Below are positions 10,624 through 36,232 of a DNA stretch of 64,000 nucleotides, piece by piece. The notes under the pieces were generated by a model, which worked only from the letters and a program-made list of their open reading frames with translations, did not search any database and was not told the origin of the DNA. The DNA comes from Frankiaceae bacterium (lineage in GTDB: Bacteria > Actinomycetota > Actinomycetes > BP-191): positions 124,001 through 188,000 of the forward strand of contig DATMES010000024.1 of NCBI GenBank assembly GCA_035556555.1, in the 5' to 3' direction. The stretch's first letter is position 1, and the number at the start of each line of letters is the position of its first letter. Made by a program: the position numbers and the translations under genes.

Positions 10624-10633
10624 GCTCGGGCGC

Positions 10634-10900: not shown

Positions 10901-12144
10901 GCGAGCCCGGATCCTCGCCCGGTCCCGGTCCCGGTCCCGGTCCCGGCTCCGGTCCCGGTTCCGCGCCCGGCCTGCCCCTCGCCGGCCTCAGGGTCCTCGA
11001 CCTCTCCCGGCTCCTCCCCGGCGGGTACGCGACCCTCCTCCTCGCCGACCTCGGCGCCGACGTGCTCAAGGTCGAGGAGCCGGGCAAGGGCGACTACCTG
11101 CGCTGGATGCCGCCGTACGCCGCCACCGGCGAGGGTGCCATGCACCTCGCCCTCAACCGCGGCAAGCGCTCGCTCACGCTCAATCTAAAAATGTCACAGG
11201 GCCGTGATGTCCTCAGGAGGCTCGTCCGAGACGCGGACGTGCTGATCGAGTCGTTCCGGCCCGGGGTCATGTCCCGGCTCGGAGTGGGCTGGGAGGTGCT
11301 ATCGGCAGACAACGAGCGGCTGATCTACGCCGCGATATCCGGATACGGCGCGGACGGTCCGTACGCCCAACGCGCCGGGCATGACATCAACTACCTCGGG
11401 TACGCCGGCGCGCTGTCGTTCAGCGGTCACCCCGAGACCGGTCCGTGGCAGCCAGGGCTGCAGATCGGCGACCTCGGCGGTGGCGGCCTCATGGCAGCCG
11501 TCGCGGTCCTCACCGCGCTGCACGTGCGGGAGCGGACGGGTACGGGGCAGTTCTGCGACGTGTCGATGACCGACGGCGTGCTGTCGTGGCTGACGCTCAC
11601 GGCGGGGGCGTTCGCGGCGACCGGCGTGCCGCCCCGCGTCGGCCGGGAGACGCTCAACGGCGGCCTCGCCTGCTACGGCGTCTACCGGTGCGCGGACGGC
11701 CGGCACCTGACGGTGGGCGCGTTGGAGCCGCAGTTCTTCGCCGCCCTGTGCGGAGCGCTCGGCCTCGACGAGCTGGTGCCGTGGCACCTCGACCCCGCGC
11801 GGCAGGCGGAGCTGCGCGCGCGGCTCGAGGCGGTCTTCGCGACGCGGCCACGCGACGAGTGGCTCGACCTGCTCGTGCCCGCGGACTGCTGCGTCGGGCC
11901 GGTCAACGACCTCGCCGAGGCGTACGCCGACCCGCAGGTCCGCGCGCGCGGCATGGTGGCCGAGCAGGCGCTGGCCGACGGGACGCCGTTCGCGCAGGTC
12001 GGGGTCGTGCCGCGGCTCGCGGACACGCCGGGACGCGTCGGCGCGGTGGCATCGCCGCTCGGCGCCGACACCGACGACGTGCTGGCCGCGGCCGGGTACG
12101 ACGCCGACGAGGTCGCGGCGCTGCGCGCGGCAGGTGCCGTGTGA
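10897..12144 (+). CDS. CaiB/BaiF-type (family III) CoA transferase / alpha-methylacyl-CoA racemase-like
   Basis: 415 aa from GTG 10897, overlapping the upstream stop. It has the family signatures LRVLDLSRLLPGGYATLLLADLGADVLKVE, the catalytic aspartate in LQIGDLGGGGLMA and a histidine in AGHDINYLGYAGAL, both as in alpha-methylacyl-CoA racemases. It would interconvert or transfer CoA on 2-methylacyl substrates. The N-terminus carries a (GP)n run encoded by a hexanucleotide repeat. Codon use at 11180-11225 (NLKMSQGRDVL) is unusually A/T-rich. Coupled by GTGA to the NYN-domain gene downstream. Confidence 0.88.
   Translation: MSEPGSSPGPGPGPGPGSGPGSAPGLPLAGLRVLDLSRLLPGGYATLLLADLGADVLKVEEPGKGDYLRWMPPYAATGEGAMHLALNRGKRSLTLNLKMSQGRDVLRRLVRDADVLIESFRPGVMSRLGVGWEVLSADNERLIYAAISGYGADGPYAQRAGHDINYLGYAGALSFSGHPETGPWQPGLQIGDLGGGGLMAAVAVLTALHVRERTGTGQFCDVSMTDGVLSWLTLTAGAFAATGVPPRVGRETLNGGLACYGVYRCADGRHLTVGALEPQFFAALCGALGLDELVPWHLDPARQAELRARLEAVFATRPRDEWLDLLVPADCCVGPVNDLAEAYADPQVRARGMVAEQALADGTPFAQVGVVPRLADTPGRVGAVASPLGADTDDVLAAAGYDADEVAALRAAGAV
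10921..10962 (+). repeat. Hexanucleotide tandem repeat (GGTCCC)n inside the CoA-transferase N-terminus
   Basis: Four perfect GGTCCC units from 10921 followed by three imperfect ones (GGCTCC, GGTCCC, GGTTCC). They encode a Gly-Pro/Ser tail before the conserved domain. Because the unit is 6 bp, length changes would alter the tail without shifting the frame. Confidence 0.8.
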
Positions 12145-13436
12145 GCGAGGGCGGCGTCGCCCTGCCCGAGGCGGCGCGGCAGCGCGTGCTCGCGTACGCC
12201 TCGACGGCGCTCGGCGCGCTGGAGCCTGCCGACGTGCCGCCGACGCTGAAGCGGTTCGCGTCGTTCACGCCGGCCAAGCGCGCCAAGCTGGCCGGGCCCG
12301 CGCTGGCGACGGTCGTGGACGCGATGCCGGCGTTCCGGCAGGTCGTCGCCACGGTCGCGCAGCGGCACCAGCCCGAGCTGGCCGAGGCACTGGAGGCGGG
12401 CACCGCGCCGGCCGCGGCCGACCCGGCGGAGGTGGCGGCGCTCGCGTACCTGCTGCGCCCCGAAGGCTGGGAGGAGCACGTCGCCACGGCCGCCGCGCGG
12501 CTGGCCGACCGCGCCGCCGAGGCGCGCGCGGGGGAGGAGGCCGCCGAGGTCGAACGCCTGCGCGCCGAGGCCGCCGACGCCCGCCGCGCGGCCAAGGCGG
12601 AGCAGGAGCGCCTCCGCGCCGAGGTCGCCGCGCTCAGGTCCGAGCTGGAGGCGGCCCGTCGTGCCGCGCGGACGGCCGCCGACGGCACCCGCCGCGCCGA
12701 GGCCGCCGCCGCGACCGCCGCCGCCGACCTCGCCGCCGCGCGCGAGTCCGCCGCCAAGGACGCCGCCACGGCCGAGTCCGCCGCCAGGCGCGCCCGCACC
12801 CGCATCGCCGAGGTGGAGAGCCAGCTGGAGGCGGCGCGCAGGGCGGGGCGGGAAGGGCGCTCGGAGGACACGATCCGCCTTCGCGTGCTGCTCGACGCGC
12901 TGGTCAACGCCGCCGCCGGCCTGCGCCGCGAGCTGGCCCTGCCGCCGACCACCGACCGGCCTGGCGACCTCGTCGCGCAGGGCAGCGCCGGCGCGGCGGG
13001 CTCGCAGGCGCGCGGGCTGGGGCCCGGCGACGCGCCGTACCTGGAGGCGCTGCTCGGCGCCCCCACCGCGCACCTCATCGTGGACGGCTACAACGTCACC
13101 AAGACCGGCTACCCCTCCCTGTCCCTGGAGGAGCAGCGCTCGCGGCTGGTCGCGAGCCTGCGTGCGCTCGCGGCGCGAACGGGGGCGGAGGTGACGTGCG
13201 TGTTCGACGGCGCGGCCGCGGCGACGAGCGCGCCGCTGGGCTCGCGCCAGCTGCGCGTGCACTTCACCCCGCCGGGCCGTACGGCGGACGAGGCGATCGC
13301 GGCGTTCGTCGCGGCGGAGCCGCCAGGCCGCCCGCTGATCGTCGTGTCGTCGGACAAGGAGGTGGCCGACCGTGCCCGGCGCGCGCAGGCGACGCCCGTG
13401 CCCTCGGCGACCCTGCTGGCCCTCCTCGGGAGGTAG
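12141..13436 (+). CDS. Coiled-coil protein with C-terminal NYN (YacP-like) nuclease domain
   Basis: 431 aa from GTG 12141. Residues about 1-130 are helical; about 130-265 are a long Ala/Glu/Arg coiled coil. About 305-431 form a NYN/PIN-like domain: HLIVDGYNVTKTGYPSLSLEEQRSRL, VTCVFDGAAAA, TADEAIAAFVAAEPPGRPLIVVSSDKEVADRARRAQA, with the conserved acids (DGYN, FDG, TADE, SSD) of the metal site. YacP/Rae1-type relatives act on RNA, so an RNA-processing role is inferred. It is the last gene of a 10634-13436 coupled run. Confidence 0.82.
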   Translation: MSEGGVALPEAARQRVLAYASTALGALEPADVPPTLKRFASFTPAKRAKLAGPALATVVDAMPAFRQVVATVAQRHQPELAEALEAGTAPAAADPAEVAALAYLLRPEGWEEHVATAAARLADRAAEARAGEEAAEVERLRAEAADARRAAKAEQERLRAEVAALRSELEAARRAARTAADGTRRAEAAAATAAADLAAARESAAKDAATAESAARRARTRIAEVESQLEAARRAGREGRSEDTIRLRVLLDALVNAAAGLRRELALPPTTDRPGDLVAQGSAGAAGSQARGLGPGDAPYLEALLGAPTAHLIVDGYNVTKTGYPSLSLEEQRSRLVASLRALAARTGAEVTCVFDGAAAATSAPLGSRQLRVHFTPPGRTADEAIAAFVAAEPPGRPLIVVSSDKEVADRARRAQATPVPSATLLALLGR

Positions 13437-23250: not shown

Positions 23251-24602
23251 GGCGCCGCCAGCAGCACGAACGTCCCGTCCGCCCCGAGCCGGCGCCAGCC
23301 GCGTTCGTTCTCCAGGGCATGGGCGAGCGGCACGTCCGCCTCGAGGAGCGCGTGCGTCGGGTCGAGCTCGTCGACGAGGCCGGCCCAGTCGCCGCGCAGG
23401 TCCATGGCGGCACGGTAGCGGTCGAGGAACCCCGCAGGAAAAGCGTCGATGCGGCCGTCCACCGCGGCGCTGACGTCGTCACCGCCGAGGCCCGTGAGGT
23501 AGCCGCCGACGTTGTACGAGTTGAGCACCCGCGCGTCGCCGGGGTGCGCGCGCAGCGTCGCGACGAGGTCGCGAGGCGCGTCGGTGGGCAGCCGCGGGTT
23601 GGCGGCGTACAGCGCGCCGAGCACGAGGACGCCGACCGCGCCCGCGACCGCGAGAGTCCAGCGCGGCAGTGTCGAGCGCCGCCCCTCCGGCACCAGCGCC
23701 GAGATCCGCCGCGCCACGATCGGCGCGAGCAGCACGGTCGCGAACGACACGTTGCGCCCGGCCGACAGCGCCGCCGCGACGACCGCGGCGCACCACACCA
23801 TCTCTCCGCGCGGCACCGGCCTGCCGCCGCGCGCCCAGGCCACGACGAGCGCCGTGACGAGCAGCACGAACGGCACCAGCGCGGGCCGCCACAGCACCGG
23901 CGGCTGCCACTCCGCGAGCGACCCCGCCGCGCGCGACACGACGTACGGCCGCGTCAGCAGCGCGGGTCCGGCCGGCGTCAGGGCGGCGCCCGCGACCGCG
24001 GCGAGCGCCGCGAGGACCAGCCCTCGCGAGCGCGTGAGGACCGCCGTCAGGACGAACGCCGCCGGCAGCAGCGGCCACGAGCCGTGCAGCGACGCCCAGA
24101 GCCAGCCGAGCGCGGCGGCGGCGAGCCAGTGCGGCGCCGTACCCGCGCGGGCGCGGTCGAGCAGCGGGAGCAGCGCGGCGAGGAGGACGAGCGCGAAGAG
24201 CTGGGGGCGCTCGAGGATCGCCGGCGCGAGGCCGAGCGCCGCGACCGCGAAGACGACAGGCCCCACGACGGCGTCGCTGCCGCGGACGACGTGCCGGGCG
24301 AGCAGCGCCAGCAGCGCCGCCCCGAGCGCCAGGCGCAGCACGACGACGCCGCCCCAGCCGGCCCGCTGCGCGAGCGCGAGGACGACGTCGGAGAGCCAGG
24401 AGTGCGCCACCCACGGGCGGCCGGCCGCGGGGAAGTCCCAGAGCTCGCGGGTGGGGAGGCGGCGGGTCCGGAGGATCAGGTTGCCGAGGCGTACGTGCCA
24501 GTAGACGTCGTAGTCCCTGACGGGGCCGGTGGCGGGCACCAGCGCGCCGGCGGCGGCGACGACGGCGAACAGCCGCCAGAGCGGCGTACGCCCCGCTAGC
24601 AC
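23247..24602 (-). CDS. Multi-spanning membrane protein, GT-C-like
   Basis: 451 aa from GTG 24602. About 11 helices after MLAGRTPLWRLFAVVAAAGALVP. The first loop VRDYDVYWHVRLGNLILRTRRLPTRELWDFPAAGRPWVAHSWLSDVVLAL resembles a GT-C donor loop (D-Y-D plus WxxHSW). A soluble C-terminal domain (VVATLRAHPGDARVLNSYNVGGYLTGLGGDDVSAAVDGR) follows. The start overlaps the end of the Flp pilin gene by 7 bp, so this membrane pair may be read from the pilin promoter. Confidence 0.65.
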   Translation of the reverse strand: MLAGRTPLWRLFAVVAAAGALVPATGPVRDYDVYWHVRLGNLILRTRRLPTRELWDFPAAGRPWVAHSWLSDVVLALAQRAGWGGVVVLRLALGAALLALLARHVVRGSDAVVGPVVFAVAALGLAPAILERPQLFALVLLAALLPLLDRARAGTAPHWLAAAALGWLWASLHGSWPLLPAAFVLTAVLTRSRGLVLAALAAVAGAALTPAGPALLTRPYVVSRAAGSLAEWQPPVLWRPALVPFVLLVTALVVAWARGGRPVPRGEMVWCAAVVAAALSAGRNVSFATVLLAPIVARRISALVPEGRRSTLPRWTLAVAGAVGVLVLGALYAANPRLPTDAPRDLVATLRAHPGDARVLNSYNVGGYLTGLGGDDVSAAVDGRIDAFPAGFLDRYRAAMDLRGDWAGLVDELDPTHALLEADVPLAHALENERGWRRLGADGTFVLLAAP

Positions 24603-24778
24603 TCCTCGGTGCCGCTTGCCTTCGCCTGGATGGAGTGGCAGGTGTCGTCGAAGAGCATGAAGACGTGCTGGCCCAGCATGAACACGATCGCGACGATCAC
24701 GGCCGCGACGGCGGCGACGAGCAGCGCGTACTCGACGGCGGTGGCCCCGGTGTCGTCACGGGTGCTGGGGCGGCGCAT
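24596..24778 (-). CDS. Flp/Fap-type pilin 1
   Basis: 60 aa from ATG 24778, with AAGAGAGG about 7 nt upstream. Short charged leader MRRPSTRDDTGATAVEYALLVAAVAAVIVAIVFML is the class IVb Flp signature (G/A then a hydrophobic helix with Glu at +5: AVEYALL). The C-terminal tail DDTCHSIQAKASGTEEC has two cysteines 12 residues apart. It would polymerise into the Tad pilus whose machinery is encoded at 28857-38639. Located 107 bp after a second pilin gene. Confidence 0.85.
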   Translation of the reverse strand: MRRPSTRDDTGATAVEYALLVAAVAAVIVAIVFMLGQHVFMLFDDTCHSIQAKASGTEEC

Positions 24779-24885
24779 CGGCTGGCCTCTCTTGCGGGCG
24801 GGGGCGGAACCGGCGAACGGACGACGGCGGGCCGTGGAGACCCGTCGTCGTCCGTTCGCCGTCGTGCTGTGTTCGGAGGGCGGTG

Positions 24886-25092
24886 CTACTCGGTGCGGCA
24901 CTCGCCGCTGGTGTTGCCTTCCGCCACGATCTCCTCGCAGGTGTCCGAGAACACCCGCTGGATGATCTGGCCCAGCGCGAAGACGATGACGACGATGAGC
25001 GCGGCGATGGCGGCCACGAGGAGGCCGTACTCGACCGCGGAGGCGCCGTCCTCGCGCTTCGCTCGCATGATCGAACGCATGTACTGGAGCAC
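24886..25092 (-). CDS. Flp/Fap-type pilin 2
   Basis: 68 aa. GTG 25092 is preferred because AGGAGG lies 4-5 nt ahead of it. Leader MLQYMRSIMRAKREDGASAVEYGLLVAAIAALIVVIVFALG gives the prepilin-peptidase region and the Glu+5 helix. The tail FSDTCEEIVAEGNTSGECRTE carries the same C-x12-C spacing as pilin 1. The two pilins are diverged paralogues, not recent copies. Processing needs a TadV/CpaA-type peptidase, which is not in this window. Confidence 0.87.
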   Translation of the reverse strand: MLQYMRSIMRAKREDGASAVEYGLLVAAIAALIVVIVFALGQIIQRVFSDTCEEIVAEGNTSGECRTE

Positions 25093-25256
25093 GGTTCCTC
25101 CTGGTCGCGTCGGGCGTGCCCCGTTGGCTCCGCCTGTGGTTCCGTTGCGTTCAGTGAAGCAGCGGGGGAGCCGTCATCCCATCGAACGACCCGGTGATGA
25201 TCACGGCCGACCGAGGGATTGACGTACGGCGTGTGCGGGTGTAGTCGGCCTGCTGC

Positions 25257-25311
25257 CCTGGTCGTTCCTTGCAGCTCGGGCGCCGGCCTCGCGCGTGGTG
25301 GTCTTCAGAGA
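25257..25311. repeat. Second copy of an approx. 50-bp dispersed repeat
   Basis: Aligns with 4876-4928: shared blocks CCTTGCA, GGCGCCGG, GCGTGG and TCTTC in the same order and spacing. It sits in the 25093-25330 gap between the pilin start and the response-regulator stop. Origin unknown. Confidence 0.5.
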
Positions 25312-25330
25312 ACGGGTCGGGGCCGCCCGG

Positions 25331-25972
25331 CTAGCGCGACCCAGGATCGCGGATCATGCCCGCGCGCATCGCCGTCATGAGGGCCTGCGCGCGGTTGGCG
25401 GCGCCGAGCTTCTCGTAGAGCTTCGAGACGTGCGTCTTGGCCGTGGACTCGCTGATGTACAGCTGCTTCGCGATCGCCGGGATCGCGAGCCCGTCGCTGA
25501 GGAGCTGGAGGATCTCGCGTTCGCGCTCGGTGAGCCGCGGCCCCTGCGGGTCGAGCCGCCGCCGCATCGCGCCGGCCAGGTCGGCGGCGCTGAAGTTGGC
25601 GGGCGCCGCGGCGGCGTGCCGCGCGGCGTTGACGACCTCCTCGGCGGGCGCGCTCTTCGCGACGAACGACGACGCCCCCGACTCGAGCGCGTCGAACATC
25701 TGCTGGTCGCCGGCGTACATCGTCAGCACGACGATGCCGACGTCGGGCCTGCGCGCGCGGATCTTCTTCGTGGCGTCGAGCCCCGAGCCGTCGGGGAGGC
25801 GTACGTCCATGACGACGACGTCGGGGGAGTGCTCGGCGTCGAGCGCCACGGCTTCGGCGACCGACCCCGCCTCGGCCACCACCTCGAACGTCTCGTCGCG
25901 CTCGAACGCGCGCCGCAGCCCGTCGCGGATCAGCGCGTGGTCGTCGCAGAGCAGGACTCTCGTCTTCGTCAC
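25331..25972 (-). CDS. NarL/LuxR-family response regulator
   Basis: 213 aa. The receiver domain has the acidic pair (LLCDDHALIRDG), phospho-acceptor Asp in VVVMDVRLPDGSG, Thr in VVLTMYAG and the Lys in FVAKSAPAEE. A LuxR-type helix-turn-helix follows (LTEREREILQLLSDGLAIPAIAKQLYISESTAKTHVSKLYEKLG). Pairs with the histidine kinase by a 4-base ATGA overlap. Position between the pilins and the Tad operon suggests control of piliation, which is inference only. Confidence 0.93.
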   Translation of the reverse strand: MTKTRVLLCDDHALIRDGLRRAFERDETFEVVAEAGSVAEAVALDAEHSPDVVVMDVRLPDGSGLDATKKIRARRPDVGIVVLTMYAGDQQMFDALESGASSFVAKSAPAEEVVNAARHAAAAPANFSAADLAGAMRRRLDPQGPRLTEREREILQLLSDGLAIPAIAKQLYISESTAKTHVSKLYEKLGAANRAQALMTAMRAGMIRDPGSR

Positions 25973-27567
25973 CCGGCTGCTCCTCCGACCTCGACCTCGA
26001 CGCGTGTTCCCTGGGGTTGACGGCTCGTGACGCGCAACGTCGCGCCGAGCCGGTCCGCGCGTTCCTTCATGATGTCCAGCCCGAAGCCGCGGCGCCCCGC
26101 GGCGTCGATCCCCTGGCCGTCGTCCTCGACCCGCAGCAGCACGTGCGGCGGGTCGACGTTCAGGGTGATCCAGAGGTTACGTGCCTTCGAGTGCTTGCGC
26201 GCGTTGCTGACCGCCTCCTGCGCGATCCGCAGCAGCTCGGCCTCGGCGTCGGCGGGGAGCCGCGCGGGGTCCTCGGACAGCGAGAGGTGTACGGCGATGC
26301 CCGCGGCGCCGGCGACGGAGCGTACGTACTCGCCGAGCGCCGCCCCCAGGCCGCCCGGCTCGGGTGCCGTACGCAGCGTGAAGATCGACAGCCGCAGCTC
26401 GCTGATGATGCGCGTGACGTGGTCGCGGGTGCGGCGTACGGTCTCCCGCGCCGTCGGCCGCTTGGCGTCCATGTCGGCGCCAAGTGCGTCGAGCTCGTAG
26501 CCGACGTAGACCAGCTCCTGGGCGATGCCGTCGTGGATCTCGCGCGCGACGCGCTGGCGTTCCTCGACGGTGGCGATGCGGCGGATCTCGTCGAACAGCA
26601 GCGCCGACTCCAGCCGCGGCGCCGCCGCGATGGCAAGCCTGCCGATGCCGTTGACCACGCCGGGGGGGAACGCGTTCTCCGCGGCCGCCTCCAGCACGAG
26701 CAGCCCCGTGCACCCCTCCTCCGCGGGGATCGGCACGACGACGAGCGACGTGAGGCCGGTGCGTACCTGCCTGCCCGTCTCGCGGACGGCGCAGCCGCTC
26801 TGCCACGCGTGCGCGATGTGGCCCTCGCCGCTGACGCGCGTGTCGTGGTCGAGGCGCTCGGCGCCGCGGACGACCAGCGGCGTCAGCCGGTCGCCCGACG
26901 TCGGCAGCAGCACCGCCCCCCGGTCGAACGCCGTCACCTCCGCGCACTCGTCGAGCAGCGTCTCCGCGGCGCTCACCGGGTCGAGGCTGCCGGGCAACCG
27001 TCGCGCCATCCCGCTCAGCTCCCCGAGCAGCCTGGACACCTGCGCGTACCGCGTCGCGGGGTTCTCGGAGCCGGCCAGCACGCGCGCCCACGCGGCGACC
27101 AGCCCGAACATGACCGCGAGCGCGACCCACTGGGTCGCGGAGATGACGTAGGCGCGCCGGTCGTCACGGATCGCGTCCAGCGGCAGCGCCGCGACGAGCA
27201 GCGCCGCCGACACCGCGCCGCCGACCGCGACCAGCCGCGCGCCGCCGCGGAAGCCGATGCCGAACAGCGGCCCGAGCAGGTACGGCAGCATCGCGCTCCG
27301 CGCGCCGCCCGTCACCGGGATGGACGCGGCCGCGATGAGCAGCTCCATGCAGACGGCCCAGCGCCAGAGCCAGCCGGTGTTGCGCTGCGACACCGCGAGA
27401 CCCGCGAGCGCGGCGGTCGGCAGCAGCCAGGCGAGCGTACGTCCCGGATAGTCCGACACCGTGGCCAGCAGCGTCGCGACGACGACGACGAGCAGGCGTA
27501 CGGCGCCGACCGTCAGCTGGGCGCGGCGGGCCACCGGGTCGCGCAGCACGATCGTCTCGCGGGGCAC
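25969..27567 (-). CDS. Membrane sensor histidine kinase with GAF domain (NarL-type partner)
   Basis: 532 aa from GTG 27567. About five to six N-terminal helices (to about residue 165), a GAF-like domain about 185-325 (LLDECAEVTAFDRGAVLLPTSG...), then HisKA_3 with the phospho-His in ERQRVAREIHDGIAQELVYVGYELDAL, and an HATPase_c domain with N-box LRIAQEAVSNARKHSKA and G-box VEDDGQGIDAAGRRGFGLDIMKERA. Signal unknown. Diverges from the DnaB-like ATPase gene. Confidence 0.92.
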   Translation of the reverse strand: MPRETIVLRDPVARRAQLTVGAVRLLVVVVATLLATVSDYPGRTLAWLLPTAALAGLAVSQRNTGWLWRWAVCMELLIAAASIPVTGGARSAMLPYLLGPLFGIGFRGGARLVAVGGAVSAALLVAALPLDAIRDDRRAYVISATQWVALAVMFGLVAAWARVLAGSENPATRYAQVSRLLGELSGMARRLPGSLDPVSAAETLLDECAEVTAFDRGAVLLPTSGDRLTPLVVRGAERLDHDTRVSGEGHIAHAWQSGCAVRETGRQVRTGLTSLVVVPIPAEEGCTGLLVLEAAAENAFPPGVVNGIGRLAIAAAPRLESALLFDEIRRIATVEERQRVAREIHDGIAQELVYVGYELDALGADMDAKRPTARETVRRTRDHVTRIISELRLSIFTLRTAPEPGGLGAALGEYVRSVAGAAGIAVHLSLSEDPARLPADAEAELLRIAQEAVSNARKHSKARNLWITLNVDPPHVLLRVEDDGQGIDAAGRRGFGLDIMKERADRLGATLRVTSRQPQGTRVEVEVGGAAG

Positions 27568-27646
27568 GTACGGACCGTTTCACGCCGCCCGTACGCGGGC
27601 AACGAAAGCGGCCCGCGGCGCGCCGGAGAGTGGCATCCTCGGGACC

Positions 27647-28648
27647 ATGAAGAAGGAGCCGGTGGTCTCGCTGCGTGACGTCCTCGACCGTGCCGACGCC
27701 GCCGCGCGGCGCGGCGAGTCCGCCGGGGCCGCGATCTACCCCACGGGGTTCCACCCGCTCGACTCGTACCTCGGCGGCGGCCTCCGCTCCGGCGAGCTGA
27801 CGCTGCTCGGCGGGCCGCAGGGCCTCGGCAAGACGACGATGGCGCTGCAGGTGGCGCGCAACGTCGCCGCGTCCGGGTGCGACGTCGTGTACTTCTCGTT
27901 CGAGCACGACGAGGTGTCGCTGCTGACGCGGCTCGTCGCCCTCGAGGCCGGCCTGCGCGACGGCACCGCGGCCGTGACGCTGCGGCAGGTACGCCAGGCC
28001 GTCGACGCCACCGCCGACTCGCCGTCGGGGCTCGCGGGCCGGCTCGAGGGCCTCGGCGGCGGCTCCGACGCCGTGAAGGCCGTGGGGGAGTATGCCGAGC
28101 GGATCGTCGTGCACCGCTCCGACGGGCGGCGTACGTCGGCCGACGTCGTACGCTCCGTCGTCGCCGGCTTCGTCAAGGCCGACCGCCAGCCGCTCGTCGT
28201 CGTCGACTACATCCAGAAGGTCGCCGTCGAGCGCGACCTGCCCAACGAGGACGAGCGCACCACCGTCGTCGTGGAGGCGTTGAAGGACCTCGCCCTGGAG
28301 TACGGCGTACCCGTGCTCGCCATCGTCGCCGCCGACAAGGCCGGTCTCGCGAAGACCGGGCGGCTGCGGATCTTCGACCTGCGCGGCTCGTCGGCGCTGG
28401 CGTACGAGGCCGACGTCGTGCTCATGCTCAACGACAAGTACGACGTCGTCGCGCGCCACCACCTCGTCTACGACGTCGCCAACGCCGAGCGCTTCCGCGG
28501 CTGGGTCGTGGTGTCGCTGGAGAAGAACCGTTCCGGCCTCGACCGCATCGACCTGGAGTTCCGCAAGGTCTTCGAGCAGGGCCGCTTCGACACCGAGGGC
28601 AACGCCGTGGCGGAGCAGCTCACCGACGACCGCGTCTTCGTGGAGTAG
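27647..28648 (+). CDS. Stand-alone DnaB-C/RecA-like ATPase
   Basis: 333 aa from ATG 27647. Walker A LLGGPQGLGKTTMALQVARN, catalytic Glu region VVYFSFEHDEVSLLTRL, Walker B PLVVVDYIQKVAVERD and a Q/His-rich switch (LAIVAADKAGLAKTGRLRIFDLRGSSALAYEADVVLML) match the C-terminal helicase domain of DnaB. The DnaB N-terminal primase-binding domain is absent. It is not the replicative helicase (about 450 aa, normally elsewhere). Position between a two-component system and the Tad operon is unusual. Role unknown; KaiC/RadA-type regulatory ATPases are alternatives. Confidence 0.78.
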   Translation: MKKEPVVSLRDVLDRADAAARRGESAGAAIYPTGFHPLDSYLGGGLRSGELTLLGGPQGLGKTTMALQVARNVAASGCDVVYFSFEHDEVSLLTRLVALEAGLRDGTAAVTLRQVRQAVDATADSPSGLAGRLEGLGGGSDAVKAVGEYAERIVVHRSDGRRTSADVVRSVVAGFVKADRQPLVVVDYIQKVAVERDLPNEDERTTVVVEALKDLALEYGVPVLAIVAADKAGLAKTGRLRIFDLRGSSALAYEADVVLMLNDKYDVVARHHLVYDVANAERFRGWVVVSLEKNRSGLDRIDLEFRKVFEQGRFDTEGNAVAEQLTDDRVFVE

Positions 28649-28703
28649 CCCGGCTCGAGATTCCCGTGCGCTCGCGCGCGCAGGGGCGCTATCAGTCGCG
28701 GTG

Positions 28704-28815
28704 GCGTCGCGAACTTGCAATGCGGCCGAGCACGCGAGGAGCGCCCCGGCATCCCACGTTGCGTGTCGTGCGCTGCGCTGCGTCGCGAACTTCCAGTGCG
28801 GTCGCGCACGCGAGG
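28704..28815. repeat. Two direct repeats of 36 bp, 76 bp apart
   Basis: GCGTCGCGAACTTGCAATGC... at 28704-28739 and GCGTCGCGAACTTCCAGTGC... at 28780-28815 match at 32 of 36 positions, ending in GCACGCGAGG. They occupy the 28649-28856 gap between two convergent genes. The GCGAACxTTGCA core recalls the dispersed repeat at 4876 and 25257. No terminator-like hairpin is obvious here. Confidence 0.6.
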
Positions 28816-28856
28816 GGGTCGGGTGGCACCGGAAGGTGCGCTAGGCCGGGCCGCCC

Positions 28857-29930
28857 CTACTCCTCCACGTCCGTGAACGGCGCCAGTGCGCGCGCCACCG
28901 CCCGCAGCGCCAGCGCGTCGGTCAGCATCGGGTTCGCCTCGCCCGCGACCGACACCGCCGTCGCGAGCGCCGCCCCGTCGAACGCCTCTCCCTCGCGCGC
29001 CGCCACGAACACCCCGCGCACCGCCGGCACCGGCACGGCCAGCACGCGCGCCCACGACGCGAGCGGCGCGCCGATGAGCTCGTCGCGCGCGCCGTCCGAG
29101 TCGTCGACGACGACACCCTCGCCGTGCTCGACGACGGTCGAGACGAGCCAGTGGTCGGCACCGAGCCGCAGGCGGTGCTCCAACGGCCGCAGCCCCACGC
29201 CGCCCGCGACGCGCCACTCCGCGCCGTCGGGCAGCAGCAGCGCGGCGGCCTCGGCGCCGGTGCGCTCGGCCAGCTCCGCGACGACGACCTCGGCGGTCTC
29301 GCGTACGTCGCTGCGCTCGCTCGCCCACGCCAGCACCGACTCGGCGAACTCGCCGATCGGCACCGAAGGCACTTCCGGGTCCGCCGCCACGAGGGGCTCG
29401 ACCGGGGACGGTGGCGGCTCCTCCGCCACCCGCACCCGCGGCAGCGGGCTCGACTCGTCCGGCGTCAGCGTCCCCGAGTCGCTGATCGCCAGCCCGACGC
29501 TCGCGGCGACCTTGGACAGCAGCTCGTTCTCGTTCGACGGGGGAGGGGGTACGTCGAGCGGTCCCGCCGCGAGCAGCTCGTCGAGCGCCGCGGTGAGCAG
29601 CCCCAGCGAGATCGGCAGCGGCAGCACGCGCGCCGCGCCGCCCACGTGCGCCGCCGTGGCGTCCCAGCCCGGGGTGTCGTTGGAGACGAGCAGCACGGGC
29701 ACGCCGAGGCCCTCGGAACGCAGCCGCTGCACCGCCGCCTCCGCCGCGACCGCGTCGGAGAGCTCGAGCACGAGGGCGTCGGCCCAGCGCGCGTTGCCCA
29801 TCCACTCGCCGTACTTGTCGGGGCGTACGTCGGCCACGTCGTAGCCCTGGTGGATGAGCCCGACAGGCAGCGTCGCGTTGCGCGTGACGACGACGACCGA
29901 CGTCGCGGAACGCTCCTTCGGCGGCTGCAC
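28857..29930 (-). CDS. Receiver-like plus GAF-like protein of the Tad operon
   Basis: 357 aa from GTG 29930, abutting the tadC stop with no gap. Residues about 10-125 look like a pseudo-receiver (SVVVVTRNATLPVGLIHQGYDVADV, VPVLLVSNDTPGW) without a clear phospho-Asp. A Pro/Glu linker follows, then about 195-350 a GAF-like domain (WASERSDVRETAEVVVAELAERTGAEAAALLLPDGAEWRVAGGVGL). It may sense or localise for the pilus machine. I cannot name the family. Confidence 0.62.
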   Translation of the reverse strand: MQPPKERSATSVVVVTRNATLPVGLIHQGYDVADVRPDKYGEWMGNARWADALVLELSDAVAAEAAVQRLRSEGLGVPVLLVSNDTPGWDATAAHVGGAARVLPLPISLGLLTAALDELLAAGPLDVPPPPSNENELLSKVAASVGLAISDSGTLTPDESSPLPRVRVAEEPPPSPVEPLVAADPEVPSVPIGEFAESVLAWASERSDVRETAEVVVAELAERTGAEAAALLLPDGAEWRVAGGVGLRPLEHRLRLGADHWLVSTVVEHGEGVVVDDSDGARDELIGAPLASWARVLAVPVPAVRGVFVAAREGEAFDGAALATAVSVAGEANPMLTDALALRAVARALAPFTDVEE

Positions 29931-30869
29931 CTACAGGTCCGTGAAGTTACGGATGATGGTGATGCCGGCCGGGCCGATGACGACGACGAACAGCGCGGGC
30001 AGGATGCAGAAGATCAGCGGGAACAGGATCTTCACAGGCACCTTCTGCGCCTGCTCCTCGGCCCGCTGCATGCGCTTGATACGCATCTCGCGCGCCTGCA
30101 CGCGCAGGACGTTCGCGACGGGGATGCCGAAGACGTCGGCCTGGATCATCGCGGTGACGAAGTTGCGGAGGTCGGCGACGTTCGTGCGCTCGGTCAGCGC
30201 GCGGAACGCCTCCGCCCGCCCGAGGCCGATCTGCATCTCCTGGAGGACGCGGAAGAACTCGTCGGCGAGGGGCCCCTCCGTGTTGCGCGCGACCTGCGCG
30301 AGCGCCGCGTCGAAGCCGAGGCCGGCCTCCACGGAGATCGTGAGCAGGTCGAGCGCGTCGGGGAGCGTGCGCTGGATCTTCTCCGAGCGGTCGTACGCCA
30401 TCTGGTACAGGCCGAGGTCGGGCGCGAAGTACCCGGCGAGGCCGAGCACGACGGCGACGCCGATCGCGGTGAGCGGGCTCAGCCCGAGCAGCAACGGCAC
30501 CGCGAGACCGGTCACGCCGAGCCCGACGAGACCGAGGCCCTTGAACGCCAGCACGCGTTCCGGGTCCCACCGCGGCGGGCTGCCGGCCAGCTCGAGCTTG
30601 TGGCGGAGACGTTCGTTCTGCCCGCCGGGGGCGAGCCGCCGGCCCAGGCCCGCGAACCGGTGCAGCATCGGCCGTACGACGCGGTCGGCGAACGCCGGGT
30701 CCGCCTCCTTGCGCAGCGAGTCCGGTGCCGACTGCATCGCGCGGACGGCGGCCAGCGAACGGCCCACCTGGGCGCGTTCGGAGGTGACGACGCCGATGGT
30801 GCCGAGCGCCACGGTCAGCGCGGCGAACAGCGCCCCGAGGCCGAGGAGGAGGACGACGGAGTCGTTCAC
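29931..30869 (-). CDS. tadC: Tad pilus inner-membrane platform protein TadC
   Basis: 312 aa from GTG 30869, with GGAGGTG just upstream. Type II secretion F-domain: helices at the N-terminus, DALDLLTISVEAGLGFDAALAQVARNTEGPLADEFFRVLQEMQIG, TERTNVADLRNFVTAMIQAD, and C-terminal helices ILFPLIFCILPALFVVVIGPAGITII. It partners TadB to couple CpaF ATP hydrolysis to pilin extrusion. Third from the end of the operon. Confidence 0.92.
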   Translation of the reverse strand: MNDSVVLLLGLGALFAALTVALGTIGVVTSERAQVGRSLAAVRAMQSAPDSLRKEADPAFADRVVRPMLHRFAGLGRRLAPGGQNERLRHKLELAGSPPRWDPERVLAFKGLGLVGLGVTGLAVPLLLGLSPLTAIGVAVVLGLAGYFAPDLGLYQMAYDRSEKIQRTLPDALDLLTISVEAGLGFDAALAQVARNTEGPLADEFFRVLQEMQIGLGRAEAFRALTERTNVADLRNFVTAMIQADVFGIPVANVLRVQAREMRIKRMQRAEEQAQKVPVKILFPLIFCILPALFVVVIGPAGITIIRNFTDL

Positions 30870-30871
30870 GG

Positions 30872-32884
30872 CTACACCTCCACCCTGACGACCTTGCGCA
30901 TCCAGAAGATGCCCGCGATGAAGATCAGCGCGACCGTGACGAGCATGATGATGCCGATCGGGTCCGTGAACAGCGGCTTGATGTAGCGGGGCCGCACGAG
31001 GATCAGGTAGATCGCGAACAGCGGCGGCAGGCCGCCGAGCACCCACGCGGAGAGCCGGCCCTCGGCGGAGAGCACGCGGACCTGGCGGCGTACGCGCTCG
31101 CGCTCGCGCATCGTGTTGGCGACGGTGGTGAGGACCTCGGCGAGGTTGCCGCCGACCTCGCGCTGGATGCGGATCGCCATGACGATCCAGGCGAAGTCCC
31201 TGCTGTCCATGCGGGTCGCGATGCTCTCCATCGCGTCCTCGATCGGCACGCCGAGGCGGCTCTCGATGATGGCGCGGTTGAACTCCGTCGCGATCGGCTG
31301 CGCGCCCTCGCGGACGACCGCGTCGACGGCCTGGGGGAGCGAGTAGCCGGCCGACAGCGAGCCGGCGAGGAGCTGCAGCGTGTCGGGCACCTGGGCCATG
31401 AACGTCGCCGTCCGCCGCGACCCCTTGAACGACAGGAAGACGTACGGCCCCGCGAAGCCGAAGAAGAAGCCGAGCAGCGTCGGGACGATCCGTCCGCCCG
31501 AGAGCAGCAGGAGCAGCAGCGCGGCGCCGATCGTCACGGCGGCGTGGATGAGCAGCCACTCGGCGGGCTTCAGCGCGCTGCCCGCGCGTTCGAGCTTGCG
31601 GGCGAGGACGGACTCGAAGTCGCGCTGCCGTACGACGCGGTCGGCGAGGTCGACGGCCGAGCGCGCGACGCCGCTGTCGCCCAGAGCGGTCGACTCGCGC
31701 TCCTCGGCGGGGGCGCGGCCGGTCAGCGTGTAGAGCGAGAGCCTGCGGCGCATGCGGCCCGACCTGCGGTCCGGCGAGAACGTCCCCAGCGCGATGACGA
31801 ACACCACGAGTAGCGCCACGAAGAGGCCGCCGAGGGCGCCGTACAGCAGGCCCTTGCTCGTGAACGCCCCGCTGTCGACGTCGACCGCGCGCGGGCCGAC
31901 GGGCGCCTGGGTCGGGGGCAGGACGACGGTGTGCACGACCTCGTCGGTCAACGCCTCCGTGCCGGCCTGCGCGCGGACGGACACCGTCACCGCGCCGGTG
32001 ATGGACGCGGGGATGTCGGCGGTGACGACGAGCTGGCCCGAGATGGCGCGGGCGGCATCGCGGAACGCCGCGCCGATGTCGCCCGCGCGGTTGGCGCCGA
32101 CCGCGCGGCCGCCGCCGGCCGCGGCGATCTGGCGGAGCGCGCCCGCGGTGGTCTCCTCGGTCTTGAACGCGACGGTGTTGAGGGTGGCCTTCGCCTCGCC
32201 CGCCCGCTTGACGACGTCGGGGAGCTTCGCGGTGCTGCTCGTGTCGGCGCCGTCGGAGAGGACGAGCACGTTGCGCGTGCCGCTGGTGCCGACCTCGCGG
32301 AGACCGAGCAGGACTCCGTCGTACAGGGCGGTCTCGCCGGCCGGCTGCAGGCCGTTGATGGCCGCGCGCAGGCGGTTGCGGTCGCGCGTCGGCGGCACGC
32401 GGACGGTGGCCTTGTCGGCGAACGTCACGATGCCGACCTCGACATCGGCGGGCACCGCGCCGACGAACGCCAGCGCCGCGGCCTTGGCGCCGGTGATGCC
32501 CTCGCCGCGCATCGAGCCGCTCGTGTCGATGACCAGCTCGGCGGCGCGGCGTACGGTCGCCGCGGTCACGGGCTTGGCCTCGCTCGGGATCTGCTGGCCG
32601 TCGATCGTGACGGACACCGAGGCGGGGTCGAGCGTCACGCCGGCGGGCAGCGTGTCTGCGGAGAACACCAGCCGGAGCTGGCCCTTCTCCGACGTGATCT
32701 CGGTGATCCGGCCGGTCACCGCATGTGCGGCGGACGCGGGCAGCAGCGCCAGCGCCACCGCCGCGAGCGCCGCGCACACCACCGGCTTTCGTGATCTTGG
32801 CAACGTTCGTGCCACCCGGGCAGCAGGAACGTTGCCAAGATCACGAAGAACGGCGGCAGGGCGCCGCGGCACGCGCCCGGTCAT
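30872..32884 (-). CDS. tadB: TadB platform protein with N-terminal von Willebrand A domain
   Basis: 670 aa. ATG 32884 overlaps the cpaF stop (ATGA). The first about 33 residues are encoded by a palindromic element; then a signal-like helix CAALAAVALALLPASAAHA, a beta region, a VWA domain about 113-300 with the MIDAS motif VIDTSGSMRG and VLSDGADT, a membrane helix (LLYGALGGLFVALLVVFVIALG), and a type II secretion F domain about 485-660 (TLQLLAGSLSAGYSLPQAVDAVVREG). VWA plus TadB fusion puts a metal-dependent adhesion/assembly domain outside the platform. Adhesion or assembly sensing is inferred. Confidence 0.88.
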   Translation of the reverse strand: MTGRVPRRPAAVLRDLGNVPAARVARTLPRSRKPVVCAALAAVALALLPASAAHAVTGRITEITSEKGQLRLVFSADTLPAGVTLDPASVSVTIDGQQIPSEAKPVTAATVRRAAELVIDTSGSMRGEGITGAKAAALAFVGAVPADVEVGIVTFADKATVRVPPTRDRNRLRAAINGLQPAGETALYDGVLLGLREVGTSGTRNVLVLSDGADTSSTAKLPDVVKRAGEAKATLNTVAFKTEETTAGALRQIAAAGGGRAVGANRAGDIGAAFRDAARAISGQLVVTADIPASITGAVTVSVRAQAGTEALTDEVVHTVVLPPTQAPVGPRAVDVDSGAFTSKGLLYGALGGLFVALLVVFVIALGTFSPDRRSGRMRRRLSLYTLTGRAPAEERESTALGDSGVARSAVDLADRVVRQRDFESVLARKLERAGSALKPAEWLLIHAAVTIGAALLLLLLSGGRIVPTLLGFFFGFAGPYVFLSFKGSRRTATFMAQVPDTLQLLAGSLSAGYSLPQAVDAVVREGAQPIATEFNRAIIESRLGVPIEDAMESIATRMDSRDFAWIVMAIRIQREVGGNLAEVLTTVANTMRERERVRRQVRVLSAEGRLSAWVLGGLPPLFAIYLILVRPRYIKPLFTDPIGIIMLVTVALIFIAGIFWMRKVVRVEV
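32788..32847. repeat. Palindromic element A, copy 1: perfect 21-bp inverted repeat, inside tadB
   Basis: Arms 32788-32808 and 32827-32847 are exact reverse complements (core GTGATCTTGGCAACGTT), with an 18-bp GC-rich centre (GTGCCACCCGGGCAGCAG). A second copy lies at 59627-59686 with about 90% identity. This copy is in frame within the tadB ORF, between its coupled start and its signal-like helix, so it encodes residues about 13-32 (VLRDLGNVPAARVARTLPRS). Confidence 0.9.
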
Positions 32885-34263
32885 CGCGAGAACTTCTCGA
32901 ACGCGAACATCTTCGGGTCGACCTGCACGCCGTGGTCGGAGAGCTTGTCGAGGAACTTCGGCCGCAGGCCCGTCGACTTCAGCACGCCCTTGCTGCGGCC
33001 CGCGTCGTCGAAGCCCATGCCGTGGTCGAACAGGAAGATGTCCTGCAACGTCACCACGTCGCCCTCCATGCCCACGACCTCGGTGACGTGGGTGAAGCGG
33101 CGGGTGCCGTCCTTGAGGCGCGACTGGTGGACGATCAGGTCGAACGCGCTCGACACCTGTTCGCGGATCGCCCGGACCGGCAGCTCGAGCCCGGCCATCA
33201 GCACCATGGTCTCGAGGCGCGCGAGCGCGTCGCGCGGGGTGTTGGAGTGGACGGTGCAGATCGAGCCGTCGTGCCCGGTGTTCATCGCCTGGAGCATGTC
33301 GAGCGCGGCGGCGTCACGGACCTCGCCGACGACGATGCGGTCGGGGCGCATGCGCAGGGCGTTGCGGACGAGGTCGCGGATGGTGACCTCGCCGCGGTTC
33401 TCGATGTTCGGCGGGCGGGCCTCGAGCCGCAGGACGTGCTCCTGGTCGAGCTGGAGCTCGGCCGCGTCCTCGATCGTGATGATCCGCTCCTCCTCGGGGA
33501 TGAACGAGGAGAGGACGTTGAGCGTCGTCGTCTTGCCGGCGCCGGTGCCGCCGGAGACGAGGATGTTGAGGCGCCCCTCGACGCACGCGGCGAGGAAGTC
33601 GGCGACGGCGCGGGTCATCGTGCCGAAGCCGACGAGGTCGTCGACGCGGTACGGGTCCGAGGAGAACTTCCGGATCGTCAGCAGCGAGCCGTCGAGCGCC
33701 AGCGGCGCGATGATCGCGTTGACGCGGCTGCCGTCGGGCAGGCGGGCGTCGACCATCGGGCTGCTCTCGTCGACGCGCCGGCCGACGCGGCCCACGATCT
33801 TCTCGATCGTGCGGCGCAGGTGCATGTCGTCGCTGAAGCCGCCCTCGACCGGGTAGAGCTTGCCGGAGCGCTCGACGTAGATGGAGCCGGGGCCGTTGAC
33901 CATGACCTCGGTGACGTCGGGGTCGCGCAGGAACGGCTCCAGCGGGCCGTAGCCGAGGATGTCGTCGGCGATGTCCTGCGCGATGCGCGTGCGGTCGTTG
34001 GTCGTGAGCGGCGTCTCCTCGGTGCGCAGCACCTCCTGGAGCGTGTGCCTGACCTTGGTCTCGAGCTCCGACTGGGTCATCCGCGCGTCGTACAGCGTCG
34101 GCCCGAGGCTCTCCAGCAGCGCCTGGTGCACCGTGCGCTTGAGGTCGGCGAACGGGTCGACGTGGCGAGCCCGCGACCGCGTGGGACCGGTGGCCACATC
34201 GGCCGTCGACGTCTCGGCGGTCTTGGTCTTCTTCGCCTGGGCGAGGCGGTCGGCGAGGCTCAT
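32881..34263 (-). CDS. cpaF: Tad pilus secretion ATPase CpaF/TadA
   Basis: 460 aa. Walker A NILVSGGTGAGKTTTLNVL, Asp box IITIEDAAELQL, Walker B RMRPDRIVVGEVRDAAALDMLQAMNTGHDGS and His box are all present, as is the N-terminal YGPLEPFLRDPDVTEVMVNG of the TadA/CpaF family. It powers pilus extension (and in some relatives retraction) at the cytoplasmic face. Starts immediately after cpaE stop; overlaps tadB by ATGA. Confidence 0.96.
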   Translation of the reverse strand: MSLADRLAQAKKTKTAETSTADVATGPTRSRARHVDPFADLKRTVHQALLESLGPTLYDARMTQSELETKVRHTLQEVLRTEETPLTTNDRTRIAQDIADDILGYGPLEPFLRDPDVTEVMVNGPGSIYVERSGKLYPVEGGFSDDMHLRRTIEKIVGRVGRRVDESSPMVDARLPDGSRVNAIIAPLALDGSLLTIRKFSSDPYRVDDLVGFGTMTRAVADFLAACVEGRLNILVSGGTGAGKTTTLNVLSSFIPEEERIITIEDAAELQLDQEHVLRLEARPPNIENRGEVTIRDLVRNALRMRPDRIVVGEVRDAAALDMLQAMNTGHDGSICTVHSNTPRDALARLETMVLMAGLELPVRAIREQVSSAFDLIVHQSRLKDGTRRFTHVTEVVGMEGDVVTLQDIFLFDHGMGFDDAGRSKGVLKSTGLRPKFLDKLSDHGVQVDPKMFAFEKFSR

Positions 34264-35466
34264 CTACGACTTCTCCGAACGGCGACGGAGACCGAACCTT
34301 CGGTTGTCCGTACGCATCGAGGCGGGCAGGGCCTTGGCCGGCACTCCGGCCGCGAACGTCTCGGCGAACTGCTTGATCGCTTGCGAGACAGGGTGTCCCG
34401 GCTCGTCGAGAACGATCGGCACGCCGCGGTTGATGGACGCGGGCACCGAGCGCGACGACGGGATCTGGACGGCGATGGGGACGCGCAGCGTCTTCTCGAC
34501 CTCGTTGAGCTGCAGTCCCACCTTGGAGTCGGCGCGGTTGAGGACGACGCGCCAACGGTCGCGCGGGTAGTTGAGCAGGTCGAGCGTCTCCAGCGTCAGC
34601 TTGAGGTTCTTCAAGGCCGGGATGTCGAGCGTCGCGAGCAGCGCGACGTAGTCGCTCTCGTCGAACGCCGCGAGGACGTGGTCGGTGAACGCCGGCGGCG
34701 TGTCGACGACGACGAACTGGAACATCTGCCGGAGCAGCCGCAGAACCCGTCCGATGAGCGCGGCGGGGATCGTGTCGGCGGCGCCCGGCTCCACCGGCGC
34801 GACGAGCGTCGTCAGACCAGGGGAGTGGGGTGTCAGCAGCGCCGCGACCGCGGTCTCGTCGAGCGAGTCGGACATCGACACCGCGTCGGAGAGCGTGTGC
34901 GCGGGGAACAGCTGGAGCGCGATCGCGACGTCGCCGAACGCCAGGTCGAGGTCGACCAGGCAGACGTTGCGGCGGCCGCCGTCGGCCAGCGCCGCGGCGA
35001 GGTTGGTCGACACGGTGGTCTTCCCCGCGCCGCCCTTCGCCGAGAACACCGTGATGAGCCTGCCGAGCTCCACGGGCTCGTCGGACGTGCTGCCCAGCCC
35101 GGCCTTCTCGCGGACGGCGTGCGAGAGCTGCACGGTGCGCTGCACGGCGGCGAGGACGCCGTCGATGTCGCGCTCCTTGACGACCTCGCGGACGCCCGCG
35201 CGCAGCGCGTCCGACAGCGTCGCCGTGTCGATGCGCGGGCGGACGAGGATGACGCCGAGCATCGGGCGTTGCAGCCGCATCGCGTCGCTCAGCGCGAGCG
35301 CGCCCTCGAGGTCGACGTGCGGGCCGATGAGCACGACGTCGACGTCCTGCTGCTCGTTGATGCGGCGGTACGCGGCGTCCAGGTCGGGCACGACGACGCT
35401 GCCCGACCCAGCGGCGCCGCGCAGCGCCTCCTGCGACAGGGCGTCGGGCTCGACGACGACGATCAA
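34264..35466 (-). CDS. cpaE: Pilus assembly protein CpaE/TadZ (MinD-like ATPase)
   Basis: 400 aa from TTG 35466, with AGGAAAGGA about 7 nt upstream. An N-terminal pseudo-receiver (VVVPDLDAAYRRINEQQDVDVVLIGPHVDLEG) is followed by a ParA/MinD-type ATPase: deviant Walker A TVFSAKGGAGKTTVSTNLAA, switch VDLDLAFGDVAIAL and VVVDTPPAFTD. TadZ proteins position the Tad machine at the pole or site of assembly. Confidence 0.93.
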   Translation of the reverse strand: MIVVVEPDALSQEALRGAAGSGSVVVPDLDAAYRRINEQQDVDVVLIGPHVDLEGALALSDAMRLQRPMLGVILVRPRIDTATLSDALRAGVREVVKERDIDGVLAAVQRTVQLSHAVREKAGLGSTSDEPVELGRLITVFSAKGGAGKTTVSTNLAAALADGGRRNVCLVDLDLAFGDVAIALQLFPAHTLSDAVSMSDSLDETAVAALLTPHSPGLTTLVAPVEPGAADTIPAALIGRVLRLLRQMFQFVVVDTPPAFTDHVLAAFDESDYVALLATLDIPALKNLKLTLETLDLLNYPRDRWRVVLNRADSKVGLQLNEVEKTLRVPIAVQIPSSRSVPASINRGVPIVLDEPGHPVSQAIKQFAETFAAGVPAKALPASMRTDNRRFGLRRRSEKS

Positions 35467-35494: not shown

Positions 35495-36232
35495 TTACTC
35501 GAGGAGGTCGGCGTCCGTCAGGACGCGGCGACGGGTGATGACCGAGTCCTCGTTGAGGAGGCCGAAGTACAGGTCGCCCTTGCGCTGCGCGTGGATGATC
35601 TTCTCCGCCTCCTCCTGCGTCGTGGCCAGCGTGAGGATCGCCGTCGGCAGAGACTCCTTGTTGGCCTGCGCGGCCGGTGCCGCCTTGAGCGTCGTCGGCC
35701 CGACGGCGAGGACCGTGATCTTCGGCAGCAGGAGCGTCGTGATCTCCTCGTCCGGTCTGGCGTTGGGGCCCTCGAACTTCACCGTGCCGGACAGGAAGAT
35801 GACGACGTTCGACCCAGGCCGTAGGAAGCCGGCCACGCGTTCGGGGTCGCCCAGGCGCACCGACATCGCGATCTTCCCCGTGGGGATCGCCAGCGCGCTC
35901 GTGGTGCCGGAGACCGCGAACTTGTTCCGAATGATCTGCTCGCCGGGGTAGATGTCGCCGACGGCGACCAGCTCGCTGATCGGTCGCGGGTCGCTGAGCA
36001 CGCCCTCGATCGTCGCGGATCGGGGGATGCGCTGCAGCCTGAACGCGCCCGCCTTCTCCGCGTTGGAGCCGAGCGTGCCGGCGCGGATGAGCGTCTTCGC
36101 GACGAGCACCTCCACCGGCTCCTGGTCCTTCAGGGCGCGGTCGTCCGCCTGGCGGACGTACGCGAAGATCAGCAGCGTCCCCAGCGCGGCCACGACGAGC
36201 GCGGCGACGAGCAAGAGCGTTCGGCGACCCAC
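35495..36232 (-). CDS. cpaB: Pilus assembly protein CpaB/RcpC
   Basis: 245 aa. N-terminal anchor RTLLLVAALVVAALGTLLIFAYV, then an SAF domain (VEVLVAKTLIRAGTLGSNAE) and VGDIYPGEQIIRNKFAV...IAMSVRLGDPERVAGFLRPGSNVVIFLSG, the CpaB/RcpC signature. In Gram-negatives this protein joins the secretin; in actinobacteria, without an outer-membrane secretin, it probably shapes an envelope channel or binds wall glycan. Confidence 0.92.
   Translation of the reverse strand: MGRRTLLLVAALVVAALGTLLIFAYVRQADDRALKDQEPVEVLVAKTLIRAGTLGSNAEKAGAFRLQRIPRSATIEGVLSDPRPISELVAVGDIYPGEQIIRNKFAVSGTTSALAIPTGKIAMSVRLGDPERVAGFLRPGSNVVIFLSGTVKFEGPNARPDEEITTLLLPKITVLAVGPTTLKAAPAAQANKESLPTAILTLATTQEEAEKIIHAQRKGDLYFGLLNEDSVITRRRVLTDADLLE

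Follow-up and report, generated by a model that had tools for sequence, protein, structure and literature searches.

A DnaB-related ATPase gene recurring beside Tad pilus genes: family placement, genomic linkage and possible accessory role

The locus described here raises the question of what a lone ATPase with the core of the DnaB helicase is doing inside a pilus gene cluster. In the window, by which we mean the whole stretch of 64,000 nucleotides analysed, the gene forms an open reading frame of 333 amino acids that spans exactly 27647 (ATG) to 28648 (TAG) on the plus strand; codon usage picks the same frame as coding and scores it well. On one side it is divergent from a minus-strand gene for a GAF-HisKA_3 histidine kinase (25969–27567), from which it is separated by a 79-base gap (27568–27646) that might be a shared promoter region. 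Beyond the kinase, and on the same strand, Pfam recognises a NarL/LuxR-type response regulator (25331–25972) and two Flp pilins (PF04964) at 24886–25092 and 24596–24778, the start of the second being set by codon usage within a longer ORF that reaches to 24901. On the other side the gene is convergent with the Tad operon. All genes here are on the minus strand: a GAF protein (GAF_2, 28857–29930) found beside the ATPase in several families, TadC (PF00482, 29931–30869), a VWA-TadB protein (30872–32782, with a longer ORF to 32884) that has a von Willebrand A domain fused ahead of TadB, the CpaF/TadA motor ATPase (PF00437, 220.6 bits, 32881–34263), CpaE/TadZ (34264–35466), CpaB/RcpC (35495–36232), a TadG-like protein (PF13400, 36301–38124) and TadE (PF07811, 38121–38639). 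The position between a two-component system and the Tad operon, on which the initial annotation had remarked, is borne out by these assignments.

The repeats that had been noticed in the convergent gap behind the gene (28649–28856) consist of a 36-nt direct repeat in two copies (28704–28739 and 28780–28815) that are 89% identical. Genome-wide, the 19-base core of this repeat occurs without mismatch only in the gap, and three occurrences elsewhere have two mismatches. The relative G002 has no such gap because its two convergent genes overlap. A search with Rfam at gathering threshold gave no match within 24000–31000. A Pfam scan of 18 flanking proteins, three of which have no match of any kind, gave no replication or phage family, in agreement with the earlier statement that no such gene is nearby. 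The N-terminal stretch of the GAF protein resembles, by eye in an alignment, a receiver domain without the phospho-acceptor. The genome also contains a second Tad locus (G000:C71:1878-3248), whose CpaF is 57% identical and which has TadC-like matches beside it.

The gene encodes a DnaB-C/RecA-fold ATPase without the DnaB N-terminal domain. Pfam DnaB_C (PF03796) covers residues 32–309 with 88.3 bits (E 7e-25, cut-off 27), weaker matches to AAA_25 and KaiC are also above cut-off, and the DnaB N-terminal domain was not found by Pfam in the 333 residues, as had been proposed from the start. Residues 14–104 align to positions 163–251 of the 435 in the DnaB profile. An AlphaFold model of the protein has a mean pLDDT of 91.4 and a pTM of 0.91. 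In a Foldseek search with this model the first 46 rows were DnaB-type helicases. Alignment with VIA-align gave Z 31.7 (rmsd 2.9 over 275 residues) for DnaB 4esv_E and Z 23.6 (rmsd 2.6 over 221 residues) for RadA 8rxc_C; KaiC does not figure in the 50 rows shown there, which is no evidence in either direction. The N-terminal helix of the model, residues 9–21, aligns structurally with the residues that precede the DnaB motor domain, and we take it to be a counterpart of the DnaB linker helix.

Placement of the protein among its relatives relied on 146 family matches in the fetched loci, selected by cut-offs of 150 bits and 270 aligned positions. These represent 104 distinct proteins; with the Chloroflexota limited to 14 we retained 81 members for the tree and residue counts, the partial protein of G025 being excluded by its length, and 59 of the 81 form the alignment used for invariant columns. 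The best NCBIfam match of the window protein is the DnaB equivalog with 83.7 bits against a cut-off of 385.25, while the equivalogs for RadA (33.3 bits, cut-off 403.05), KaiC (25.3 bits, cut-off 408) and ArlH (21.2 bits, cut-off 215) score lower still, all four being below threshold. Profiles for DnaB, RadA and one KaiC model matched all 59 aligned members and FlaH matched 40, and the best E-values over the 59 rank DnaB, RadA, KaiC and FlaH in the same order as for the window protein. A quick tree of 83 rows, composed of the 81 members and two DnaB rows, has a long starred branch between the family and DnaB; 27 of its 80 inner branches are open, and the pairing of L024 with L040 may be a long-branch artefact. 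The ATPase forms a separate family, distinct from DnaB, RadA and KaiC, the separation from DnaB being seen in the tree and that from RadA and KaiC in the profile scores. A KaiC-like or circadian ATPase, which the initial annotation had considered, was rejected as family identity on the profile scores, DnaB being nearer by profile and also filling the best structural rows. Elsewhere in the genome, the strongest DnaB_C match (296 bits) is on contig C22, where it is split in two inside a single 970-aa frame, a pattern that an intein would give (G000:C22:59797-61773), and RadA, with a KNRFG motif, is on contig C34.

Other origins of the gene were considered and rejected. Seven of the best eight of 211 matching phage records are helicases with 26.0–28.9% identity. 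The phage record MT839844 (L253, MT839844.1, labelled Bacteriophage sp.), at 46.6%, was read as mislabelled bacterial DNA, namely Intrasporangiaceae-like chromosomal DNA, because its neighbouring ORFs (SSADH, dxr and rseP, named by eye) are those of Intrasporangiaceae loci. The best eight of 68 matching plasmid records reach at most 32.8%. As to a defence system, PADLOC gave one weak match, mads_8, with an E-value of 3.3e-6.

The residues expected of an ATPase are conserved throughout the family. Walker A comprises residues 56–63 (GPQGLGKT, 27812–27835, plus strand as for all positions in the gene), with K62 in 81/81 members; the catalytic-type glutamate E86 (27902–27904) and D187 of Walker B (residues 184–187, VVVD, 28196–28207) are present in 81/81 as well. 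A KNRxG motif follows at residues 293–297 (28523–28537), of which K293 (81/81) and R295 (80/81) are the presumed trans finger. Across the 59 aligned members, which come from two phyla, 27 columns, including those of the Walker and catalytic residues, are invariant. Such constancy is hard to reconcile with a decaying helicase relic that has lost its function, an explanation to which the missing N-terminal domain and the replacement of two DnaB-type residues might otherwise lend themselves, and which we hold to be highly improbable.

The two replaced residues deserve closer attention. Position A228 (28328–28330), which corresponds to the motif-H3 glutamine of DnaB, is alanine in 81/81 members and glutamine in both DnaB rows. 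Residues 239–249 (RLRIFDLRGSS, 28361–28393) occupy the place of what we take to be the DnaB pore loop, and here the glutamate of the DnaB RESG motif, kept in both DnaB rows, has become G247 in 81/81 members. In DnaB, the positions of the H3 glutamine and the RESG glutamate couple to DNA. Their loss throughout the family speaks against the idea that the protein is a DNA-handling ring for Tad-dependent natural transformation, one that binds or moves the incoming strand brought by the pilus and that would represent a cytoplasmic motor for actinobacterial transformation. Other features are more favourable to this idea. The arginines R239 and R241 are invariant (59/59, like R329) and R246 is nearly so (arginine in 57, lysine in 2); R239 and R241 would fit nucleic acid equally well, which has to be counted against a pilus role. 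The KNRxG motif resembles the KNRFG of RadA, and the genome's own RadA has, by eye, VGHVTK without a glutamine at the H3 place, so that loss of this residue is compatible with DNA work. Tad genes are, moreover, described as necessary for the transformation of the actinobacterium Micrococcus luteus (PMC4322843). On the other hand, none of the 18 flanking proteins scanned with Pfam was identified as a competence protein, and overall we judge a DNA-handling function to be unlikely.

The strongest clue to the function of the ATPase is its genomic context. A first look at 60 relatives, the window's genome counted, found an orthologue (E below 1e-70) in seven, and the family (E <= 1e-35) is present in 22 of 393 genomes of the class. 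In 14 of these 22 carriers, belonging to six families, the gene lies beside tad genes: G000 and G002 (f1), G083 (f9), G021 (f20), G025, G043, G060 and G075 (f24), G031 (f30), and G104, G211, G287, G350 and G365 (f38). The link to Tad genes suspected initially is thus recurrent, but in the other eight carriers the gene is found elsewhere. These are G048 and G312 of f33, and G091, G135, G175, G184, G286 and G372 of f26; f33 corresponds to Intrasporangiaceae and f26 to Nocardioidaceae, because identical proteins occur in named records. All eight have TadC on another contig, and the Tad loci fetched from G048, G312, G372, G091 and G135 contain no ATPase gene.

Comparison of the loci themselves indicates how the gene is accommodated. 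Both TadC and the kinase are visible in 27 fetched loci, which were chosen and are not a random sample. The stretch between the two holds the ATPase gene in 13 of them, with a gap between the aligned parts of 1139–3048 bases, and is without it in the other 14, with a gap of 156–1147 bases, the upper value being that of L208. The TadC-kinase interval is an optional place, in which the gene is present or missing in otherwise similar loci. The GAF gene (28857–29930 in the window) is a second optional occupant of the same interval and occurs there without the ATPase in L202. In the same genus as the window, G001 is without the ATPase gene and has a CpaF that is 84% identical; its TadC-kinase place is out of sight because its Tad contig stops inside TadC. 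The ATPase gene is divergent from the kinase in 15 of 17 distinct loci (15 surveyed loci, the window and G025, each with the kinase on the contig) and on the kinase strand in L024 and L189; L043 and L189 have it on the same strand as TadC. Since its orientation differs among Tad-linked loci, the gene has been flipped in place without leaving the pilus locus. L194 and L195, which belong to G048 and G312, have the kinase-regulator pair inverted. Genes outside the Tad operon are also common to this region in relatives, so common ancestry may by itself explain part of the linkage.

Elsewhere the neighbourhoods are different. Among the best 80 of at least 273 relatives, ten loci are Tad-linked, all of them among the 42 actinobacterial loci and none among the 38 from Chloroflexota, the non-linked loci including short contigs that cannot tell. 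The ten linked loci are all titled as MAGs, and G031, linked and on one contig, may be an isolate; Phycicoccus and Nocardioides are among the carriers with an unlinked copy. When the neighbours in 85 loci were clustered, with gene names assigned by eye, 17 loci from Nocardioidaceae and their relatives had ribosomal genes of the L7/L12 and L10 types, 12 from Intrasporangiaceae and their relatives had dxr and rseP, and those from Chloroflexota had an M20 peptidase (37 loci), ftsH (34) and an inorganic pyrophosphatase (27). In the f33 and f26 carriers that have the gene and CpaF on one contig (three and ten, respectively) the two are never nearer than about 0.2 Mb. Orthologues in unrelated neighbourhoods, which the initial annotation had named as the observation that would weigh against a Tad connection, are therefore found in Nocardioidaceae, Intrasporangiaceae and Chloroflexota, beside the linkage that holds in the majority of class carriers. 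Some loci carry more than one copy: L029 (1639–4910) has tandem copies of which the first ones are partial, the same protein giving four matches in G494, and L046 of Nocardioides allogilvus (10001–12981) has two copies about 1 kb apart that fall into different parts of the tree.

These data have to be weighed against a further explanation, in which the protein is a general cellular ATPase without any pilus role, whose position in the Tad locus was inherited once and kept by descent. It could account for the settings in other groups, where the gene adjoins genes for ribosomal proteins, dxr/rseP/ispG or ftsH/pyrophosphatase. It is also compatible with the tree, in which the Tad-linked label, carried by 18 rows, needs only two changes compared with a mean of 16.6 after shuffling, meaning that linked copies cluster; some of the 49 rows labelled unlinked come from loci too short for linkage to be judged, and the tree cannot separate gain from loss of linkage. 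The 14 Chloroflexota rows form one starred group. A general role is less easily squared with a linkage that survives inversion of the gene, with the clean absence of the gene from the same place in relatives, and with the co-occurrence data described below, and we consider it somewhat unlikely.

A CpaF is present in 150 of the 393 genomes of the class at E <= 1e-100 and in 57 at E <= 1e-190, the search having scored the four best first-look candidates per genome. At the stricter threshold it is found in 21 of the 22 carriers. The exception is G025, whose 3.7-kb contig ends inside the ATPase gene, with the kinase, regulator and Flp genes adjoining. Counted by genus, strong CpaF occurs in 10/10 carrier and 16/127 non-carrier genera (p 1e-8). 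The enrichment extends to families in which the gene is unlinked: at E <= 1e-120, CpaF is found in 28/35 carriers versus 17/84 non-carriers of f33 (Fisher p 1.3e-9; 14/16 versus 11/37 genera, p 1e-4) and in 31/35 versus 80/124 of f26 (Fisher p 0.004; 9/10 versus 7/16 genera, p 0.02). The Fisher tests ignore shared ancestry, and as a genus was scored positive if any of its sampled genomes was, the genus counts favour large genera. A survey of relatives with and without Tad genes, as had been suggested, accordingly shows carriers to be enriched for strong CpaF. At the same threshold no CpaF was detected in seven of the 35 f33 carriers (G412, G420, G453, G465, G471, G489 and G504) and four of the 35 f26 carriers (G506, G550, G552 and G573), an observation in line with a general role. 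Some of these genomes are incomplete, but G489, a single contig with 99% completeness, and G412, with 30 contigs and 100%, are not. For Chloroflexota, 30 carriers of the 38 loci were searched, carriers only: 26 have CpaF at E <= 1e-90 and one at 1e-63, and in three none was found at E <= 1e-60.

Taken together, the ATPase probably has a Tad-related role of some kind. This reading is based directly on the predicted fold, the conservation of motifs, the recurrent linkage and the co-occurrence with CpaF; against it stand the eight unlinked carriers of the class, the CpaF-less carriers in f33 and f26, and the clustering of Tad-linked copies in the tree. That the protein is specifically an accessory ATPase of the Tad (type IVc) pilus, ArlH-like beside CpaF, is a tentative proposal to which we would give somewhat less than an even chance. 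A still more specific version, unlikely as it stands, would have a DnaB-derived ring recruited by Actinomycetota Tad pili to gate or reverse CpaF, as a convergent bacterial counterpart of ArlH that supplies the missing control of direction in a pilus with a single motor.

As an accessory Tad ATPase, the DnaB-motor-related protein would probably form a ring through the linker helix and the trans finger. An ATP-binding ring is what the conserved catalytic residues, the finger and the linker helix naturally suggest, and the protein probably still binds and hydrolyses ATP. Its most likely site of action would be the cytoplasmic face of the Tad machine, near CpaF, which it may touch, and the platform proteins TadB/TadC; there it could set the timing or direction of the CpaF drive, as is thought for ArlH beside the homologous motor ArlI in archaea. 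The 79-base divergent gap may couple its expression to the neighbouring kinase-regulator pair.

Tad pili have a single motor, CpaF, for both extension and retraction; it resembles archaeal FlaI, and the control of its direction is described as unclear (PMC11300603). CpaF is likewise said to serve extension and retraction alike in PMC11656802. An additional ATPase gene that recurs at one position in many Tad loci, and that relatives lack there, offers a concrete candidate for such control. PMC12024892 describes ArlH as required for the stimulation of ArlI and as never shown to hydrolyse ATP, and has other members of the superfamily assembling without an ArlH homologue. KaiC-family ATPases are predicted as regulators of archaeal pili in PMC4858521, and Tad is held to descend from archaeal Epd-like pili in PMC6668835. 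A DnaB-related ATPase in the role of a pilus regulator would be convergent. If true, a helicase-type motor would have been reused for a surface machine, in parallel to the KaiC-like ArlH of archaea. Among the open-licence papers listed by our searches, no title or abstract opening describes a DnaB-, KaiC- or RecA-like component of bacterial Tad loci.

The ATPase can be set beside several known systems. With the DnaB motor domain it shares the fold, a helix corresponding in position to the linker helix, Walker A and B, the catalytic glutamate and the K/R finger, but it has no N-terminal domain, scores below the equivalog cut-off, and carries alanine for the H3 glutamine and, in the window protein, RGSS for RESG. 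RadA/Sms has in common with it the KNR-x-G motif, an H3 place without glutamine and a structural match of Z 23.6. RadA has a Lon-like domain, whereas Pfam finds none in the window ATPase, which reaches 33.3 bits against the RadA cut-off of 403. The known second Tad ATPase, CpaE/TadZ, is also an accessory P-loop ATPase of the same locus; in contrast, it is of the ParA/MinD type and is encoded separately in the window. ArlH/FlaH resembles the protein in being a RecA-fold ATPase whose gene accompanies those of a type IV filament with a CpaF-like motor; the window protein differs in a profile score below the ArlH cut-off and in predicted catalytic residues that are intact. Finally, the KaiC-family pilus ATPases of archaea (arCOG01171, 01174 and 01175 in PMC4858521) provide a parallel as accessory RecA-fold genes next to pilus genes, but while these are archaeal and of KaiC type, the window ATPase is bacterial and nearer to DnaB.
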